DNA of 64,000 nucleotides from Orenia metallireducens (GTDB lineage: Bacteria; Bacillota; Halanaerobiia; Halobacteroidales; Halobacteroidaceae). The DNA lies in assembly GCF_003001995.1 (NCBI RefSeq), contig NZ_PVNB01000015.1:1-64000 (forward strand). The letters are read 5' to 3'. Shown here one piece after another: positions 10,951-57,259 of this stretch. The position numbers and the translations under genes were made by a program. A model generated the notes under the pieces. It did no database searches. It was not told the DNA's origin and worked only from the letters and a program-made list of their open reading frames with translations. Each line of letters begins with the position of its first letter. Position 1 is the first letter of the stretch.

Positions 10951-11160
10951 TTATTCAATTCCTACTACTTGATATCCTGCCTCTTCAACTGCTGCTGTCA
11001 ACTTAGCATCAGCTACCTCTGCAGACAGCTCAACTATAGCTCTATTCTCATCAGCACTCACATCAGCTGATTTGACCTCATCCATTGCCTCTAATTCTTT
11101 TTGGACACGTCCTGAGCAATGTCCACAACTCATTCCTTCAATTCTAATAACCTTCTTCAT
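10951..11160 (-). CDS. copZ: CopZ copper chaperone, nested in-frame at the 3' end of copA
   Basis: An ATG at 11160, in frame with copA, has AAGGAGGAG (11175-11167) exactly 6 bases upstream, a near-perfect translation start inside the linker of CopA. The product would be 69 aa, the same length as Bacillus CopZ, with the Cu(I) site GMSCGHC (Cys12, Cys15). The linker residues VKEEKS are simply the translation of that ribosome site. It could deliver Cu(I) to CopA or CsoR as a free chaperone. Either the cell makes both fused and free forms, or a stop codon was lost recently between two genes. Expression of the short form is inference. Confidence 0.6.
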
Positions 11161-13692
11161 AGATTTCTCCTCCTTAACAGTACTATCTTCTATATTTTTA
11201 TTATCTTTAACAGTATCAATCCTATTTTGAGGTTTAAAGTTCTTTAACCTCAAAGCATTGGTCAATACTGATACTGAACTCATTGACATCGCTGCCGCTG
11301 CAATCATTGGATTGAGTAATGGTCCCCCAAAAAGGTGTAACAGACCAGCAGCAATTGGAATCCCTGCTGTATTATAAGCAAAAGCCCAGAATAGATTCTG
11401 CTTGATATTTCTAATTGTAGCTTTACTTAGCTGGATAGCTGTAACTACATCCATGATATCATCCTTCATCAAGACAATATCAGCACTCTCCATGGCTACA
11501 TCGGTACCAGAACCGATTGCTAATCCTACATCTGCCTGGGCCAAAGCAGGTGCATCATTGATCCCATCACCAACCATGGCTACCTTCTTACCATTGTCTT
11601 GTAATTTCTTAACCTCGTTAGCTTTATCTTCAGGCAAAACTTCAGCTCGAACTATATCAATCCCAACCTCTTTAGCAATAGCATTTGCTGTCCGCTGATT
11701 ATCACCTGTAATCATCGCAACCTCAATTCCCATCTGATGAAGGGTCTTGACTGCTGCTGCACTGCTCTTCTTAACTGTATCTGCAACAGCAATAATTCCA
11801 GCTAACTCCCCATCAATTGCCATAAACATTGGAGTCTTACCTTCATTGGCAAGTCTATTGGAATCCTCTTGTAAGGTAACTTCAATCCCTTTATCATCCA
11901 TCAGCTTTATATTGCCAAGTAAGATAGCTTGATCATCTATCTCTACCTCAATTCCATGACCAGGAATCGCCATAAAGTTATCGAGCTTCTTAAACTCTAA
12001 CCCTTTATCTTCTGCACCCTTAACGATAGCTTCCCCTAGTGGATGTTCAGAACCCTTCTCAGCTGAACCTGCTAACGTTAATAGCTCCTCTTCAGAATAG
12101 TTACTAGCTGCTACTATATCGGTAACCTTTGGCTTTCCTTCAGTAATAGTACCTGTCTTATCAAAAACTATTGTCTCTATCTTGTGAGCAGTTTCTAAAG
12201 GAACCCCACCTTTGATTAAGACTCCATTCTCTGCCCCTTTACCTGTACCGACCATAATTGCTGTTGGTGTTGCCAGACCTAAAGCACAGGGACAAGCAAT
12301 TACCAATACCGAAATGAAGATAGTTAAAGCAAATACTGCTCCTGCTCCTGCTAAATACCAAGCAAGCCCTGCTAAAATAGCAATTCCAATTACTACAGGA
12401 ACAAAGTATCCTGCAATTATATCTGCCATCTTAGCAATTGGAGCTTTGGAGCCTTGGGCCTCTTCTACTAACTTAATAATTTGGGCTAAGGCTGTATCCT
12501 TACCTACTTTAGTAGCCTTAAACTTAATAGTCCCATTCTTATTAAGCCCAGCACCAATTACCTTATCACCAACCTTCTTTTCGACAGGGATACTCTCTCC
12601 AGTTAACATTGATTCATCGACAGCAGTATGCCCCTCAACAATCGTACCATCTACAGGAATTTTCTCTCCTGGCTTGACCACGATAATATCTCCAACCTCC
12701 ACCTCTTCAATAGGAATAGTCATCTCCTCACCATCATGGATAACTGTAGCTGTTTTAGCCTGTAAATCCATCAGCTTCTTAATCGCCTCTGAAGTCTTCC
12801 CTTTAGAGACTGCTTCTAAGTACTTACCAAGTAAAATTAAAGTAATGATTACTCCTGCACTTTCAAAGTATAGATTCATAGCATAACTATTATCTCCACT
12901 AGCTATTCTAAAGACAGCATAGATTCCATACAAAATAGCTGCTGAGGTACCAATAGCTATCAATGAATCCATATTAGGATGCCCTCTAAATAAGGATTTA
13001 AAGCCGACAGTATAGAACTTATAACCTGCTATCATTACTGGAATAGTTAAGAATAATTGTAGCAGAGCAAAATTCATTGGATGGACTGATGGCTCTAAAA
13101 TCTCAGGAAGCGGTAAACCTATCATATGACCCATAGAGATATAAAATAGAGGTATTGTAAAGATAGCCGCAGCAATGAACTTCTTCCAAAGTGTCTCTAT
13201 CTCCTGATTCTTTCTCTCTTTATCAGTATCTACTCGCTCACCTGCTTCAATCTCTAAGGGTTCATATCCTGCCTTAGTAATGGCACTTTTAATCTCAGAG
13301 ATTCTAGTCTGATGGGGATTGTACTTAACTCTTGCTTTCTCTGTGGCAAAGTTGACGTTTACCTCTTCAATTCCTTCTAACTTCTTAATCCCCTTCTCTA
13401 CAGCAGCAGCACAACTAGCACAAGTCATCCCACCAATTGGTATATTTATCTCTCGTAGTTCAATCTCATCATCAATACCATAACCAGCAGCTTTAACTGC
13501 TGCTTTAATATCTTCTAATCTAGCAGTTGAATCATCAAAAACCACATTTAGCTTTTCAGTAGCAAAGTTAACATTGGCTTCTTGCACACCAGCTACCTTG
13601 TTGACATTCTTCTCTACTGCAGCTGAACAGCTAGCACAGCTCATTCCTGTGACCTTAATTGTTTCTTGCTGCAATGCTTTTGTCTCTGACAT
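10951..13692 (-). CDS. copA: Copper-exporting P1B-type ATPase with C-terminal CopZ domain
   Basis: 913 aa, longer than the usual 730-810. Two N-terminal HMA domains bind Cu(I) through Cys19/Cys22 (GMSCASC) and Cys91/Cys94 (GMTCASC). The P-type core shows TGES, the membrane CPC motif ([13 protein letters not shown]), the phosphorylation site [18 protein letters not shown] in the nucleotide domain and [16 protein letters not shown]. After the last membrane helices comes a third HMA domain (residues 845-913, Cys856/Cys859). It exports Cu(I) from the cytosol. The third domain is a complete 69-aa CopZ preceded by an internal ribosome site (separate entry). Its promoter carries a CsoR box. Confidence 0.95.
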
Positions 13693-13749: not shown

Positions 13750-13807
13750 ATACCCCCTAAGGGTATTTCTTGATTAAAAGAATATCATATTCAAGCTTAT
13801 CTGTCAA
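13750..13807 (-). promoter_or_regulatory. copA promoter with CsoR operator
   Basis: Minus-strand TTGACA (13807-13802), 17 bases, TATTCT (13784-13779), then the 17-base box ATACCCCCTAAGGGTAT (13766-13750) just downstream of the expected transcription start. The box matches the G/C-tract pseudo-palindrome bound by CsoR, and nearly the same sequence recurs at 15878 and 16869. CsoR bound here would block transcription until Cu(I) releases it. Confidence 0.85.
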
Positions 13808-14075: not shown

Positions 14076-15284
14076 TTAAACAAAGATATAAGAGAATAAT
14101 CCACCAACTAAAACTATAATAAATACTTTAGTAAATAATCCTTTAATATCTAACTTTTCTTCATCATCTGTCCCATGATTCCTACTCTTATGATTCTCTC
14201 TCTGATCTTTATATAGATAAACTAATCCTCCTGCCAAAACTATAAAGAAAAGATTCATCCAAAAGGTATAATCTAGCTTAAACTGAGTCAATTGGGTAAT
14301 CACTTTATTACTCTCTGGAACAATCCCACTAACAGAGAATAAACCATTTAAAATCAATGCTGTTAAGACAATACTAAGATACATAATCCCTGCAATATAA
14401 AAAGCTACCTTCTTACCATAATACTTAGCATTAACAGCAACTAAAGGTGGTACCATCAAATCTGAATAGATAAAACCCATAATCCCAGCAAAAAAGACCC
14501 CATTAGCATTTAAGACTGTTGCCAGTGGAATATTTCCCATAGATCCAATAAAGGTAAGAGCTGCTACAAAGGGAGCCACTAAAGCATTCTCAATGGCAAT
14601 TAGCCAAGAAGGTAATGAATTAGTGTAATCCATCAAAAATATCTTAGCCCAAATATCATCACTAACAAAGACTGCTACAAAACCTGCAATAGTAAAGCCT
14701 ATTAATATTTCCTGCCAGACCATCTTCCACTCCATCACAAAGTTCTTAGCAACTAAGTTCCAACCCTCTTTACTGGAAATTCTTTCTTTCCAATCAAAAT
14801 CCTCTTCTGCTAAATCTGTATCACTCTCTACCTTCTTTCTAGCAGCTTTAATCAAGCTATCAGGATAAGTAATCTTAATTAAGATACTACTAATTGCAAT
14901 CAAGACCAATCCACCAATAATTTCAGCAGCTAGAAACTCCCAGCCCAAAAAAATTAGGATTAAAATCCCTAACTCTATTACTAGATTAGTCGAAGCAAAC
15001 ATAAAAGCAACAATCGTGATAAAATGGGCTCCTTTATGGAACAATGCTCGTGCTGCTGCCAAGGCTGCAAAAGAACATGATGAAGAAGCACCACCAAAGA
15101 TAGTAGATAATGAGATACTCTTTAAATTAGCTTCACCCATATATTTTGTTAATTTCTTCTTAGGTACAAAACTTTGAATCATGCTACTGATAAAATAACC
15201 TAAAATAAAGGCCCAACCAGCTTTCCAAAAGAAGCCTATTGCAGTGACGGCTCCTTGACCATAAAGTTTAAAAAAATTATTAAT
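14076..15284 (-). CDS. ArsP/DUF318-type membrane permease with non-canonical start
   Basis: The frame is open to 15284 and encodes 402 aa. An internal ATG at 15182 has no ribosome site and would cut off a predicted helix (FFWKAGWAFILGYFISS). A strong AAAGGAGGAG at 15300-15291 precedes the codons ATA CTT ATT, so ATT at 15284 (6 bases away) or ATA at 15290 is the likely start; no ATG, GTG or TTG is available. Around eight to ten membrane segments flank a charged loop (about residues 145-175). The GGASSSCSFAALAAARALFHKGAHF segment replaces the CSCS signature of ArsP-type permeases. Relatives export organoarsenicals or are of unknown use. Its place in the copper island suggests metal or metal-thiol export. 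Function uncertain. Confidence 0.7.
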   Translation of the reverse strand: MNNFFKLYGQGAVTAIGFFWKAGWAFILGYFISSMIQSFVPKKKLTKYMGEANLKSISLSTIFGGASSSCSFAALAAARALFHKGAHFITIVAFMFASTNLVIELGILILIFLGWEFLAAEIIGGLVLIAISSILIKITYPDSLIKAARKKVESDTDLAEEDFDWKERISSKEGWNLVAKNFVMEWKMVWQEILIGFTIAGFVAVFVSDDIWAKIFLMDYTNSLPSWLIAIENALVAPFVAALTFIGSMGNIPLATVLNANGVFFAGIMGFIYSDLMVPPLVAVNAKYYGKKVAFYIAGIMYLSIVLTALILNGLFSVSGIVPESNKVITQLTQFKLDYTFWMNLFFIVLAGGLVYLYKDQRENHKSRNHGTDDEEKLDIKGLFTKVFIIVLVGGLFSYIFV

Positions 15285-15389: not shown

Positions 15390-15860
15390 TTATTGCTCAT
15401 CATAAAGATAAGAGACTCCCAATCCTATTGAGAAAAAGATACCCACTAAAAAAGTGCTAAGATACTTATAGCCTTGAGGTACAGATTTAATATCAACTTT
15501 ATTACTAAAATCTAGCTTATGTAAGAAATTTAGTTTGATTAGTCCAGCAGTCTTTAATCCTAAAAGTATAATAAATATTCCTCCAACTATATTGAAATAT
15601 TTAATATTGTTCTTAAAAACATGACCAACTTCACTAACTAACCCACCAATTAAGGTAAATACCAGAGTAAAACCTAAAATAAAGACTAAGGTACTAATTA
15701 CAATATGAGCCTTCATTTTCTTCTGTATAGTTGCCGATTGTAAATCCTCTAAAGATAATCCAGTAATTAAGGTGAAATAAACGGTACTCATCGGAATAAT
15801 ACAAGGTGATAAAAAAGAAAAGAAGCCAATAATAAAAGGGACTAAATATATACTTTCCAC
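15390..15860 (-). CDS. CcdA-like thiol-disulfide membrane protein, C-terminally truncated
   Basis: 156 aa from a GTG at 15860 (AGAAGGGA upstream). It begins like CcdA/DsbD-beta: FIIGFFSFLSPCIIPMSTVYF, with the first redox Cys in helix 1. It proceeds through about four helices to FLVGIFFSIGLGVSYLYDEQ and stops. Complete CcdA proteins are about 220-240 aa and carry the second essential Cys right after this FxxGxxFSIG segment (usually WxPCxGP). That Cys and the last helices are absent, so electron transfer by the usual mechanism is not possible. It is probably a decaying gene, or a subunit with a changed role. A CsoR box lies 17 bases before the start. Confidence 0.7.
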   Translation of the reverse strand: MESIYLVPFIIGFFSFLSPCIIPMSTVYFTLITGLSLEDLQSATIQKKMKAHIVISTLVFILGFTLVFTLIGGLVSEVGHVFKNNIKYFNIVGGIFIILLGLKTAGLIKLNFLHKLDFSNKVDIKSVPQGYKYLSTFLVGIFFSIGLGVSYLYDEQ

Positions 15861-15877: not shown

Positions 15878-15894
15878 ATACCTCATAGGGGTAT
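15878..15894 (-). promoter_or_regulatory. CsoR operator before the ccdA-like gene
   Basis: ATACCTCATAGGGGTAT, 17 bases, equals the copA box at both ends (ATACC and GGGTAT). Confidence 0.8.
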
Positions 15895-15958: not shown

Positions 15959-16234
15959 TTATTTAGTAAATTTAAAGATAACATCCATTAATTCACTAAT
16001 CACCTCGTCACCTTCTTCTCCTACATCTACTGCATCTTTGACACAACCATGAGTATGAGACTCCAAAATACTCATTCCTACCTTATTTAAAGCACCTTTG
16101 ACTGCTGCAATCTGAGTCAAAACCTCTACACAATACTTTTCATCATCTATCATGTTTTGAATACCTCTTACTTGACCCTCTACTCGTTTTAATCTAGTAA
16201 TTAACTCCTTCTTATTACTGCAATATGAAGACAT
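15959..16234 (-). CDS. csoR: Copper-sensing repressor CsoR
   Basis: 91 aa from the ATG at 16234, which has AAAGGGG 9 bases upstream; ATG 16240 and GTG 16243 are too close to the site. The all-helical DUF156 fold keeps the Cu(I) ligands Cys35, His60 and Cys64 (the C-H-C pattern with HTHGC), and LKRVEGQVRGIQNMI is the DNA-binding face. Apo-CsoR binds GC-tract pseudo-palindromes, and Cu(I) releases it. Three matching boxes at 13750, 15878 and 16869 lie within 3 kb, so targets are copA, the ccdA-like gene and the secreted protein gene. Ni-type (RcnR/InrS) sensors use different ligands, so copper is favoured. Confidence 0.92.
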   Translation of the reverse strand: MSSYCSNKKELITRLKRVEGQVRGIQNMIDDEKYCVEVLTQIAAVKGALNKVGMSILESHTHGCVKDAVDVGEEGDEVISELMDVIFKFTK

Positions 16235-16300
16235 AATCATCACCCCTTTTTTAGAATTAAAAATTGATAATACAGAATTGAGAGTTTAATAAATTAATTT

Positions 16301-16840
16301 TCAATCCTTAATTGTATTTATAACTTGATGCTTCTTAGTATCTACCACCGATACTGTCCCACTATTAGCATTAGCAATATAGGCATAATCCTCATTATTC
16401 TTAGACTCTAATTTCCACTTTAAAATATGGTCAACATCCCTAATATTTTTAAAAGTTATTTCTATAAATTTAATCGAGTTATTAAACAGATCTTGCTGAT
16501 CGCTAACTTTAATCTTCCCTGCAGGATGATGACTAGATCTTCTTTCCCATTCCCATTTAATATTCTTTGAATTTATTTCACCTAAATTGGTTCTGACATC
16601 AATAATCTTATCAAAATCTAAACCTAATAAGTCCCCACTATGAGTAGTTAAATAGACTTGAAACTCTACAGTATCATTATTTAACTGCTTAGGATTAAAG
16701 ACTGTATCAATCCAAACACCTTCGCCACTAGAACTACGGCTCCATTCTCTAGGGTTGAATTCTTCATTAGCCATTACTATACTAGAACCAAATAATATTA
16801 AAGCTAATAACATTAAAATAGATACTTTAATCTTCTTCAC
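16301..16840 (-). CDS. Secreted protein truncated at its first YVTN beta-propeller repeat
   Basis: 179 aa from a GTG at 16840 with AAGGAGT 7 bases upstream. Residues 1-24 are a Sec signal peptide ending VMA. Residues 30-145 form an unrecognised beta-rich domain containing SSHHPAGKIKV, a possible metal site. The last residues, YAYIANANSGTVSVVDTKKHQVINTIKD, are exactly one blade of a YVTN surface beta-propeller, after which the gene stops. Such propellers need about seven blades, so the gene looks truncated. The DNA after the stop is a repetitive TTAAGGATTGAAAATTAA-type sequence. A CsoR box at 16869 precedes it, so it belongs to the copper regulon. Confidence 0.65.
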   Translation of the reverse strand: MKKIKVSILMLLALILFGSSIVMANEEFNPREWSRSSSGEGVWIDTVFNPKQLNNDTVEFQVYLTTHSGDLLGLDFDKIIDVRTNLGEINSKNIKWEWERRSSHHPAGKIKVSDQQDLFNNSIKFIEITFKNIRDVDHILKWKLESKNNEDYAYIANANSGTVSVVDTKKHQVINTIKD

Positions 16841-16868
16841 TTTATCAACTCCTTATTATATTTATACA

Positions 16869-16885
16869 ATACCCCCGTAGGGTAT
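16869..16885 (-). promoter_or_regulatory. CsoR operator before the secreted protein gene
   Basis: ATACCCCCGTAGGGTAT, 17 bases, differs from the copA box at two central positions. Confidence 0.82.
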
Positions 16886-16905
16886 TATATAGCTAAAAAA
16901 ATAGC

Positions 16906-17151
16906 TTACTTCTTTAAGACTTCTTTTCTTTCTCTAAACTCTTCCTTAGTAATTAAACCTTGAGCAAGCTGTTTCTTTAACAAAGCCATAGCACTATCCT
17001 CTCTTTTAGATTTTAGAATTAACAACCGAATTATAAGATAGATTATTCCTATAAATACTCCTAAGTGTAATAACATTATTCCTATTGATTGCCAACCATT
17101 TAAACCATAGCTATATATTCCTGAACAAAGATCTGACCACATTACCTTCAC
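16906..17151 (-). CDS. Small membrane protein with SHOCT domain
   Basis: 81 aa: one membrane helix (about 20-46) followed by a cytoplasmic C-terminal SHOCT motif (MALLKKQLAQGLITKEEFRERKEVLKK). SHOCT is a short helical oligomerisation module often found at the C-terminus of small membrane proteins. Cys9 precedes the helix. It is one of two such genes in the copper island. Function unknown; perhaps assembly or turnover of the neighbouring membrane proteins. Confidence 0.72.
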   Translation of the reverse strand: MKVMWSDLCSGIYSYGLNGWQSIGIMLLHLGVFIGIIYLIIRLLILKSKREDSAMALLKKQLAQGLITKEEFRERKEVLKK

Positions 17152-17264
17152 CTCCTCATATTATATTAGTGAAATAAACAATTATATTCCCATCATTTTA
17201 CTCGTATTTAATACAAATAAAAAAATCTAAATATATCATTAAAATTTATAATTAACAAATATAA

Positions 17265-17306
17265 GTATTCAATTAACAGATTAATTCTACTCTGTTAATT
17301 GAATAC
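17265..17306 (-). terminator. Hairpin after the Met/Gly-rich SHOCT gene
   Basis: GTATTCAATTAACAGA (17265-17280) and TCTGTTAATTGAATAC (17291-17306) form a 16-base stem, with T-rich sequence following on the minus strand. Confidence 0.65.
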
Positions 17307-17311
17307 CATAT

Positions 17312-17563
17312 CTATTTCAATAACTCGTCCTTAATCTCTTGAAACTCCTCTTTACTTATCTCTCCTTTGGCATACCTCTGTCTAGCAATTTCCATTGGAT
17401 CTTCTACTGATTTTCCTTCTATTCTCTCAGTTCTATTGTTAGAATTATTAGAATTTCTGATAAGATAGACTCCTACAGCAATTATGGCTATCCAAAATAA
17501 ACCCATCATCCAGATTCCACCTCCAAAAAAACCACCCATTCCATGCCCCCACCCATGCATCAT
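17312..17563 (-). CDS. Met/Gly/His-rich small membrane protein with SHOCT domain
   Basis: 83 aa from the ATG at 17563, with AAGGAG 9 bases upstream (a GTG at 17572 abuts that site). The N-terminus MMHGWGHGMGGFFGGGIWMMG is rich in Met, His and Gly, a composition suited to binding Cu(I). One helix follows, then a SHOCT motif, DPMEIARQRYAKGEISKEEFQEIKDELLK. It has the same architecture as the gene at 16906. It starts 19 bases after the stop of the di-heme gene, so the two are co-transcribed. Copper binding is inference from composition and context. Confidence 0.75.
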   Translation of the reverse strand: MMHGWGHGMGGFFGGGIWMMGLFWIAIIAVGVYLIRNSNNSNNRTERIEGKSVEDPMEIARQRYAKGEISKEEFQEIKDELLK

Positions 17564-17582
17564 CGGTATCACTCCTTAAAAA

Positions 17583-18302
17583 TCAGATTATATATAGCTT
17601 ATCTAAAACATGATATACAGTTATTAAAATAGCAATTACTGAAACTATTACATGTAATACTCTAAATAACTTATAGTCTAATTTAACTTTAAAATACTTC
17701 TTTAATATTCCCAGTAGAATTACTAAACTATATAAAAATAACATTATCCAGCCTGGTGAAAGGAAAAGACCATGAAATTGAGGAACAATATGAAAGAATA
17801 TTACTATTAGAAGTCCAATAATCCCAACAATACAATGATAATTTAGTACCCTTCTAAAGTAATGTTTTCGTCGCTCCTTTAAACTATTACTTCTCTTCCA
17901 TAGATAATAAAGGATTCCATTTAATAAAAATAATAAATAGGAAACTACACCCATGGTAATTATCCTACTTCTCTTTAATCTATAATCTTTTTTTAATTTA
18001 TACCCATAATCTTGAACCTTATCTTCAACTGGGGAATCAGTATCGCCTTCTTCTTGCTCCTTAATTTCTCTGTTTTCAGCCTCTTTATTCTCTTCTTGTT
18101 CTTCTTTTATCTTTTCCTCTGGACTCTGATGAAATTCTTGACCATGGGCGATAATTAAATTCACCTCATCTTCTATAAGTAACTCTCTTTGAAATAAATA
18201 GTTGAGTTTAAAATCATCCTGCCAGCTTATTGCCTCAACAACTTTGATATTTAGAAATAATCCTAATATTAAAAAGACTAGAATAAATCTAATTAGTTTC
18301 AT
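17583..18302 (-). CDS. Predicted di-heme membrane protein (ferric-reductase-like) with acidic linker
   Basis: 239 aa. A signal peptide (1-24) is followed by an extracytoplasmic stretch (25-110) with a Glu/Lys-rich segment (residues 62-90) and then four membrane helices. Two of them carry paired histidines: H-X14-H (HCIVGIIGLLIVIFFH) and H-X13-H (HVIVSVIAILITVYH). That spacing is the bis-heme b arrangement of ferric-reductase-like (YedZ/FRD-type) membrane domains. It may move electrons across the membrane, for example to reduce Cu(II), Fe(III) or a thiol-redox partner. Flanked by Met-rich proteins. No close family was recognised; heme binding is inferred from the spacing only. Confidence 0.6.
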   Translation of the reverse strand: MKLIRFILVFLILGLFLNIKVVEAISWQDDFKLNYLFQRELLIEDEVNLIIAHGQEFHQSPEEKIKEEQEENKEAENREIKEQEEGDTDSPVEDKVQDYGYKLKKDYRLKRSRIITMGVVSYLLFLLNGILYYLWKRSNSLKERRKHYFRRVLNYHCIVGIIGLLIVIFFHIVPQFHGLFLSPGWIMLFLYSLVILLGILKKYFKVKLDYKLFRVLHVIVSVIAILITVYHVLDKLYII

Positions 18303-18407
18303 GCCCCTAACACATCCTTATATTGATGTTGATATACTTATTATTCACTTATCTGCTAGGGGTATATACAATCTATAATTTAATTATTAACATTATTTTC
18401 TGTTAAA

Positions 18408-18923
18408 TTACCAAACCATCATTCTACTACCATGCATCATGTGACTTCCCATCATTCCACCACCAGCCATATGTCCTCCAAATCCTCTTCCACCCATCAT
18501 ACCAAAGCCCATCATTCCATGGTCTTCCATAACCTCCAATTGTTCAGCTGTTAAGATATCCCTTATCTCTAACTGCATCTCTGCCATTAACATAGACATC
18601 TTATCTCTTAATTGATTGATCTCTGCTTGTAATTTTAAGACATCATCTTTAACACCCTTATCAAAGTATAAATCTCTTAAATCTCTTCTCTTATCCCGCA
18701 TATCATCCATTAAATCATCAATTTGATCATGGTATTTATCTTGTAAGTCTTCTATCTTATCCTTTTGTTCCTTAGAGATATTCAACTCATTACGGAAGTC
18801 ATTATTCCTATAGTTACTTCTAGAATCTTGAGCAAACCCATTTCCACTTCCATGGGCAAAAGCATAAACTGAAACTCCTAATACCAATGTCATTACTAAA
18901 GCAAAACTTAAAATCTTTCTCAT
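18408..18923 (-). CDS. Spy/CpxP-like Met/His-rich periplasmic metal-resistance protein
   Basis: 171 aa. The signal peptide ends AYAFA/H (residue 23). The core (about 45-130) is the charged helical Spy/CpxP hairpin with one LTAEQLE motif. The last 35 residues (GMMGFGMMGGRGFGGHMAGG, then MMGSHMMHGSRMM) are packed with Met, His and Gly, as in Cu(I)-binding tails. Spy-like proteins act as extracytoplasmic chaperones and metal buffers under envelope or copper stress. Strong AGGAGGAG site. Its promoter region carries three 11-base direct repeats (separate entry), unlike the CsoR-box genes beside it. Confidence 0.8.
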   Translation of the reverse strand: MRKILSFALVMTLVLGVSVYAFAHGSGNGFAQDSRSNYRNNDFRNELNISKEQKDKIEDLQDKYHDQIDDLMDDMRDKRRDLRDLYFDKGVKDDVLKLQAEINQLRDKMSMLMAEMQLEIRDILTAEQLEVMEDHGMMGFGMMGGRGFGGHMAGGGMMGSHMMHGSRMMVW

Positions 18924-19002: not shown

Positions 19003-19048
19003 ATTATATAGGGTAAATATTAAGAAAGTATTAAGAAAATATCAAGAA
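19003..19048 (-). promoter_or_regulatory. Three 11-bp direct repeats abutting a -10 box, response-regulator type
   Basis: Reading the minus strand: TTCTTGATATT (19048-19038), TTCTTAATACT (19037-19027) and TTCTTAATATT (19026-19016) are contiguous, followed 7 bases later by TATAAT (19008-19003). There is no -35 box. Head-to-tail 11-bp repeats on one helix face, replacing the -35, are the binding pattern of OmpR/PhoB-family activators. This would put the Spy-like gene under a two-component system, as CpxR/BaeR control spy in E. coli. No such system lies in the window. Confidence 0.65.
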
Positions 19049-56488: not shown

Positions 56489-57100
56489 TTATTTACTTTT
56501 ATCTTCAACTTCCTCTACTTCTCCATCTTCCTCTACTTCTTCATCTTCCTCTACTTCTTCATCTTCCTCTACTTCTTCATCTTCCTCTACTTCTTTATCT
56601 TCCTCTACTTCTTCATCTTCCTCTACTTCTTCAACTTCCTCTACTTCTTCAACTTCCTCTACTTCTCCATCTTCCTCTACTTCTTTATCTTCCTCTACTT
56701 CTTCATCTTCCTCTACTTCTTTATCTTCCTCTACTTCTTCATCTTCCTCTACTTCTTTATCTTCCTCTACTTCTTTATCTTCCTCTACTTCTTCATCTTC
56801 CTCTACTTCTTCATCTTCCTCTACTTCTTCATCTTCCTCTACTTCTTCATCTTCCTCTACTTCTTCATCTTCCTCTACTTCTTGCTTATTTTCAAGATTG
56901 TCATTTAACTCAATCTCTTCTAATATCTCCTCTTCTTCATAATCAGCAGCATCCACCATAAACTCTCTCTTTAGCTCTTCTTTCTTATCCTTGGGCATTG
57001 GAATAATCTTAGCCTCTTTATCATACTCCTTCTTTCTCCACCAAACCGCTGCTAAAAGTATTCCACCCAATACAACAAGAGTTATAATTATAGCTTCCAT
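56489..57100 (-). CDS. Membrane-anchored protein with 21 acidic hexapeptide repeats
   Basis: 203 aa from the ATG at 57100 (AGGGTG 9 bases upstream). One N-terminal helix (about 2-22: EAIIITLVVLGGILLAAVWW) and a basic stop (RKKEYDKEAK) place the rest in the cytosol. From about residue 74 to 199 come 21 perfect-length hexads, EVEED followed by E, K or G, or EVEEVE. Only the DKSK tail follows. The hexads would form an extremely acidic, probably extended or helical rod. Function unknown; a Ca or polycation buffer, or a spacer, is possible. The repeat tract lies in 18-base DNA units and is likely to vary in length between strains. Confidence 0.7.
   Translation of the reverse strand: MEAIIITLVVLGGILLAAVWWRKKEYDKEAKIIPMPKDKKEELKREFMVDAADYEEEEILEEIELNDNLENKQEVEEDEEVEEDEEVEEDEEVEEDEEVEEDEEVEEDKEVEEDKEVEEDEEVEEDKEVEEDEEVEEDKEVEEDGEVEEVEEVEEVEEVEEDEEVEEDKEVEEDEEVEEDEEVEEDEEVEEDGEVEEVEDKSK
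56504..56881. repeat. Tandem array of 21 x 18-bp units
   Basis: The unit (plus strand) CTTCATCTTCCTCTACTT is repeated 21 times without indels, with single-base changes mainly in one codon (GAA, AAA or GGA) and in Asp/Val. A block ending in the Gly and EVEEVE units occurs twice, which suggests segment duplication as well as slippage. Not a CRISPR: units are contiguous and in frame. Confidence 0.92.
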
Positions 57101-57259
57101 CAGTAGAATCACCCTGCTAAGCGGGCAATTCCTTCACCCCCCTCAATAAATTTACACTCTTATAATGTTTATAAGATTTAAGGAAGGAATATTCCACTCA
57201 CAAATAAATTTTCCTATATTTTCATATCAAATCCTTTTCTGAAATACCAATAAAAAAGA

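Follow-up and report, generated by a model that had tools for sequence, protein, structure and literature searches.

A probable CsoR-linked copper-efflux and envelope-protection locus in Orenia metallireducens

The stretch of DNA considered here, referred to throughout as the window, comprises positions 1 to 64,000 of contig NZ_PVNB01000015.1 of Orenia metallireducens. It contains a run of genes on the minus strand that reads, from 19046 down to 10951, spy, the gene of a four-helix membrane protein (4TM), two genes for SHOCT peptides (a and b), a gene encoding a secreted N-domain (ND), csoR, a ccdA remnant, the gene of an ArsP permease and copA. An initial annotation, made from the sequence alone, had marked out positions 16301 to 18923 as a copper-handling cassette of five genes beside csoR. 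Every open reading frame that it named is present and in its place on the minus strand, and the five genes are real, but the cassette is wider, as copA, the permease gene, the broken ccdA and the CsoR operators also belong to it. In the following list, C39 is a second contig of the same genome and G012 a genome of the same genus.

10951 to 13692, minus strand: copA, a Cu(I)-type P-type ATPase; open reading frame with CxxC metal-binding domains at the N-terminus (two) and the C-terminus (one), and the MSMSS signature in its sequence
13750 to 13766, no strand assigned: exact CsoR-type operator (ATACCC-N5-GGGTAT), 58 bp upstream of copA
14076 to 15281, minus strand: ArsP_1-family permease (PF03773, 3.4e-50)
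15390 to 15860, minus strand: ccdA remnant, 156 aa of about 253 (PF02683, 5.4e-7)
15878 to 15894, no strand assigned: CsoR-type operator with one mismatch, 18 bp upstream of ccdA
15959 to 16243, minus strand: csoR, the repressor gene (PF02583, 8.3e-32)
16301 to 16840, minus strand: ND gene, a secreted N-domain with three invariant histidines whose propeller is lost, the gene ending in blade 1
16869 to 16885, no strand assigned: exact CsoR-type operator, 29 bp upstream of the ND gene
16906 to 17151, minus strand: SHOCT peptide b, one transmembrane helix (PF09851, 1.6e-7; conserved in C39 and G012)
17312 to 17572, minus strand: SHOCT peptide a, with a Met/His/Gly-rich head (PF09851, 4.5e-10; ATG at 17563 the likely start)
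17583 to 18302, minus strand: 4TM, a secreted acidic N-region followed by four transmembrane helices, of which helices 2 and 4 each carry a bis-His pair
18356 to 18365, no strand assigned: degenerate half of a CsoR-type box (CTAGGGGTAT) upstream of 4TM, missed by a scan allowing two mismatches
18408 to 18923, minus strand: Spy/CpxP-like protein with a conserved Met/His/Gly tail (PF13801, PF07813)
19015 to 19046, minus strand: three 11-bp direct repeats CTTRATAYTTT, resembling an OmpR-family operator, upstream of spy

We read this run as a CsoR-linked copper-efflux and envelope-protection locus, with a probability of roughly 0.6, and the assignment of the locus to copper is itself strong. The extracytoplasmic copper handling initially proposed for it agrees with the operators, the Cu(I)-type ATPases and the conserved neighbourhood. 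The published consensus of type-2 CsoR operators is ATATACCCCTNAGGGGTATAT (PMC3902906), and exact boxes occur twice within the window against an expectation of 0.0. Across 45 ND loci the number of exact boxes was 16 against 0.0 expected, rising to 48 against 1.0 when one mismatch was allowed, while the comparison of 40 test loci with 33 control loci yielded 14 exact boxes and none, respectively. Many of the boxes at ND loci precede copA, a DUF2933-ND-CcdA unit, YHS and spy2, a second spy gene. Residues C38 and H63/H65-x-C67 are invariant in an alignment of three CsoRs of copper loci; the repressor keeps the Cys / His-x3-Cys copper-site pattern and is predicted to bind copper. Spy and SHOCT are tied to copper most clearly in genome G002, where copA-copZ-spy-SHOCT form one operon, with 2 bp between copZ and spy and an exact box 74 bp before copA. 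Within the window, the scan allowing two mismatches placed no CsoR box before 4TM, SHOCT or spy.

In 40 genomes of the phylum, up to 20 kb of DNA around ND was compared with 33 arbitrarily chosen control loci of those genomes. P-type ATPases were present at 19 ND loci and two control loci, and DUF2933 (17 ND loci), Lgt (17), CcdA (16), a SpeE-like protein (12), SHOCT (8) and YHS (6) were found at no control locus at all; the ND loci are phylogenetically related and Fisher p-values overstate their independence, making the zero control counts the safer evidence. Full-length P-type ATPases near ND carry the Cu(I) signatures CPC, NxxxxxxYN and MxxSS, with the exception of the neighbouring ZntA of G012, and one 495-aa protein labelled CopA by similarity is without these signatures. 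In genome G010, copA-spy-SHOCT-ND-lgt-yibE-DUF2933-ICMT lie in a row. The co-occurrence expected of the five initially annotated families extends to SHOCT, Spy and ND, but not to 4TM, which is found in two genomes with one copy frameshifted, and the five genes are not conserved together as a unit. At 14 of the 40 loci, and at none of the controls, an immediate neighbour of ND is a small, unnamed membrane protein with a GTGTSTVSMVACCLHHLGDVLPIIG motif (CCxHH); examples are L059 9349-9822, L075 10448-10927 and L086 10443-10949, which have no Pfam match above cutoff.

A six-sequence profile recovered ND from 50 of 399 sampled phylum genomes and from 12 of 59 class genomes. In 38 aligned members H67 (within T-H-S-G-D/N-L), H104 and H105 (within S-H-H-P) and W142 are invariant, and 14 of the 38 carry a lipobox-like motif. 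The stand-alone domain is the usual form elsewhere in the phylum; fusion to a YVTN propeller is seen in at least seven members. No family for ND emerged from searches of Pfam, NCBIfam and the PDB, which returned only scattered weak matches lying mostly in the signal-peptide or lipobox region. Cupredoxins likewise gave no match in Pfam or the PDB, sulfocyanin (TIGR03094) reaching E 0.066 in two members only, and in place of the type-1 copper ligand set (His-Cys-His-Met) the ND core has three histidines and no conserved Cys or Met. The single-sequence structure model (pLDDT 66, pTM 0.59) is beta-rich, with a weak, non-significant resemblance to Ig domains. Plasmids yielded no ND. We tentatively suggest, at odds a little short of even, that ND represents an undescribed family of beta-rich extracytoplasmic copper-binding domains, taking the place of a cupredoxin-type CopA partner in anaerobic Firmicutes-like bacteria and occurring alone, beside CcdA or fused to a propeller. 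Present in about one in eight sampled phylum genomes, with three residues to target, operators of the copper type and a constant set of partners, the family is an accessible subject for study, and one that would make it easier to put names to many hypothetical proteins of copper islands. Because anaerobes have no use for the multicopper oxidases of aerobes, which depend on oxygen, little is known of what becomes of copper in anaerobes once CopA has exported it.

The paired-histidine helices described at first for the four-helix protein are borne out. Behind a signal peptide and an acidic outer region, 4TM has four hydrophobic helices, with His 156/171 (H-X14-H) and 217/231 (H-X13-H) forming the pairs and His 177 in addition. 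Its first loop (residues 135-151) contains eight Lys/Arg and one Asp/Glu and is placed inside by this charge distribution, and therefore H156 and H217 are predicted to lie near the inner face, H171 and H231 near the outer face and H177 in an outer loop. The gene ends 10 bp before that of SHOCT a, and the two probably share a transcript. The only relative, at the end of the copper cluster of G002, keeps all five histidines and is split by a frameshift; no further relatives turned up in contig scans, whether run with the protein itself or with a profile of two sequences, or in viral contigs and plasmids. In this relative (L017 9401-10065) the signal peptide is 71% identical to that of Spy and the frameshift falls between helices 1 and 2. 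A third match within the class (G161, E 3e-4) contains five stops and was rejected as spurious.

In having four helices, the second with a histidine pair at X14 and the fourth with one at X13, 4TM resembles di-heme b cytochromes and the FRD superfamily, and a spacing of this kind is that of cytochrome b/b6; the pairs are conserved in G002. It differs from these proteins in having neither a solved relative nor an NAD(P)H/FAD domain, and its family matches fall below cutoff (PF01794, Ferric_reduct, 19.0 bits against 28; PF02322, 22.3 against 35.6). The structure model, made from the single sequence (pLDDT 64, pTM 0.32), found no fold match at E <= 0.001. A di-heme b-type carrier with putative hemes is most likely, being the best reading of this architecture. 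The change of redox state through hemes that had been proposed for the locus would follow from the same architecture only, with no significant match of family, sequence or fold beside it. The genome contains no ferrochelatase; two AhbD-like genes lie nearby, both below their family cutoff, and a supply of heme by the siroheme (Ahb) route is plausible at best.

Starting from what is observed, namely the genes present, their operators and truncations, the invariant histidines and the conserved association with Cu(I)-type ATPases, we propose the following model for the locus. CsoR would repress copA and the ND gene, and probably also the unit of ccdA and ArsP, and would be released by Cu(I), whereupon CopA would pump Cu(I) across the membrane. 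Outside, the beta-rich ND would bind the exported copper through its three invariant histidines, while the SHOCT peptides and the Met/His-tailed Spy would act as low-affinity copper ligands at the membrane surface, with Spy also protecting envelope proteins. 4TM would be an accessory specific to the lineage and would most likely carry electrons as a di-heme b-type protein; the direction of its electron flow and a possible reduction of Cu(II) are, like copper binding by each part and chaperoning by Spy, predictions drawn from sequence. Several observations weigh against such a model. No P-type ATPase lies within reach at 21 of the 40 ND loci, and csoR is nearby at only three of them. In the window, spy is preceded by the three CTTRATAYTTT repeats and not by a CsoR box, 4TM is present in only two genomes and is nearly unique to this one, and fold searches with the ND model gave no match at E <= 0.001.

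Of the alternatives, the one that survives best is a role in assembly, which we nevertheless consider unlikely. Here, a lipoprotein or otherwise anchored ND would work with a CcdA thiol pathway to deliver copper to, or to reduce, an extracytoplasmic enzyme, and the operators would only tune this process to the copper supply. CcdA is indeed the commonest immediate neighbour of ND (17 of 45 loci, median gap 10 bp), about half of the ND loci have no P-type ATPase within the up to 20 kb compared, and the links to Lgt and to lipoboxes point to lipoprotein biology. Against this, ND sits with copA, csoR, SHOCT and DUF2933 in the class to which the window belongs, the operators are of a copper-excess repressor type, and the window's own ccdA is broken. 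The latter is 61% identical to the 253-aa CcdA of genome G003 only up to residue 151, and its frame stops 11 residues past that point, before the CSHC motif of its relatives, leaving it short of the full length and the two Cys sites of a working CcdA. The adjacent ArsP permease has a weak, below-cutoff match to the SO_0444 Cu/Zn efflux family (NF033936). The likely full-length start of the permease gene (14076-15281) offers no ATG, GTG or TTG; beyond the ATG at 15182 the frame stays open in the upstream direction for a further ~33 residues, as far as an ATT, the apparent start, behind AAAGGAGG.

The remaining small proteins have the features initially ascribed to them. The two SHOCT membrane peptides score 39.4 and 31.3 bits for their domain (cutoff 27), and the Met/His/Gly-rich head of peptide a, MMHGWGHGMGG from its likely start, is kept in orthologues. 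The Spy-like protein resembles the periplasmic chaperones Spy, CpxP and ZraP in passing the Pfam cutoffs for LTXXQ (PF07813, 1.6e-9, 38.8 bits against 24.3) and Metal_resist (PF13801, 1.5e-10, 41.7 against 29.2), and differs from them in its conserved Met/His/Gly-rich C-terminal tail and in falling below the NCBIfam cutoffs for the Spy, CpxP and ZraP equivalogs. The 11-bp spacing of the direct repeats before its gene is typical of OmpR-family regulators. Close copies of the repeats stand before the Spy genes of C39, G012, G010 and G011. Less complete copies are found before the Spy genes of G006, G007 and G008, at whose loci no copper gene was recognised. It is therefore probable that the window's spy responds to envelope stress and is not a direct target of CsoR. 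Across the order (window 19015-19046; L171, L174, L175, L176), the repeats before Spy genes likely constitute a conserved OmpR-type envelope-stress operator.

It could be argued from these repeats, and from the fact that 32 of 59 class genomes have Spy genes, for the most part at a distance from copper genes, that Spy, SHOCT and 4TM together answer misfolded envelope proteins by way of an OmpR-type regulator, and that their adjacency to copper genes is loose. We consider such a general envelope-stress locus a rather poor prospect, less likely than a role in assembly, as spy and SHOCT lie directly behind copA in G002 and G010, and the order spy-SHOCT-SHOCT-spy2-ND is kept in the two cassette-bearing species of the genus.

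The window's copy of the locus has been rearranged. The secreted, His-containing protein of the initial annotation exists and is secreted, but it is the truncated form of a longer protein and not a complete entity. A full-length paralogue of 444 aa on C39, 92% identical to the window's ND, and an orthologue of 445 aa in G012 combine ND with a YVTN propeller (PF10282, 2e-15 in the paralogue), of which the C-terminally truncated product in the window retains the first blade as its last 28 residues (TIGR02276, 23.5 bits; cutoff 27.85). DNA similarity to both copies ends at window position 16306. The ND fragment (window 16306-16857 against L012 9985-10536) has 94.6% DNA identity to C39 and 81% to G012, and the adjoining SHOCT region ~79% to both; since the fragment is closer to C39 than its neighbouring DNA is, the two copper loci of this genome have probably undergone gene conversion. 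The ratio of nonsynonymous to synonymous change between fragment and C39 (dN/dS, 0.034/0.167, about 0.21) comes from few changes and speaks against a neutral pseudogene; the fragment is thus not obviously decaying. The same genes flank the G012 locus and that of the window (flavodoxin, DUF3793, ZntA). Relative to G012, the window is without the propeller, spy2 with its repeated GNGQGMM tail, the YHS protein and the lgt paralogue, and 4TM stands as an insertion between its spy and SHOCT a genes. The copy in the window is a rearranged and partly decayed cassette, with a complete paralogous one on C39. That the run is largely debris of an island whose working copy is that on C39 is about as improbable as a general envelope-stress role, for the truncations of ND and ccdA, the missing genes and the full second cassette are set against intact spy, SHOCT, 4TM and csoR genes, the low dN/dS and exact operator of the ND fragment, and the fact that a stand-alone ND is usual in the phylum.

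With CsoR-copA(-copZ) copper-efflux operons, the locus shares csoR, copA and the type-2 CsoR operators before them. The CsoR meta-regulon of gut Firmicutes includes CsoR, CopA, HMA proteins, DUF2318 and HMA-DsbD_2-DUF2318 proteins (PMC4938975), and ND, SHOCT, Spy, DUF2933 and 4TM are not among the members listed in the portion of that account consulted. The closest published cassette is the MerR-CopA-cupredoxin-DUF2933-ICMT arrangement of Alteromonas and relatives (PMC8478169), which likewise unites a copper ATPase, DUF2933 and ICMT with one extracytoplasmic beta-sheet protein. ND loci differ from it in having ND in the cupredoxin's position, CsoR as the repressor, and SHOCT, Spy, CcdA, Lgt and YHS in addition. 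Compared with YncE-like/YVTN beta-propeller proteins, the full-length paralogue carries the propeller and differs by the unnamed ND in front of it, the window's protein having lost the propeller. A review of bacterial copper homeostasis (PMC7558416) makes no mention of Spy, CcdA or SHOCT, and a description of this gene set was not found in the open-access literature.

Beside related cassettes lie DUF326 four-helix Cys-rich proteins, candidates for Csp-like copper storage (L012 7286-7636, L014 14323-14661, L016 3867-4220), none of which was seen at the window locus. A phage-portal-like gene (L012 1147-2304) is situated ~6 kb from the C39 cassette, which may reside on an integrated element. Elsewhere in the window, positions 56489-57112 encode a 207-aa protein with one hydrophobic segment, the greater part of which, following that segment, is made up of acidic tandem repeats of the EVEEDE type.

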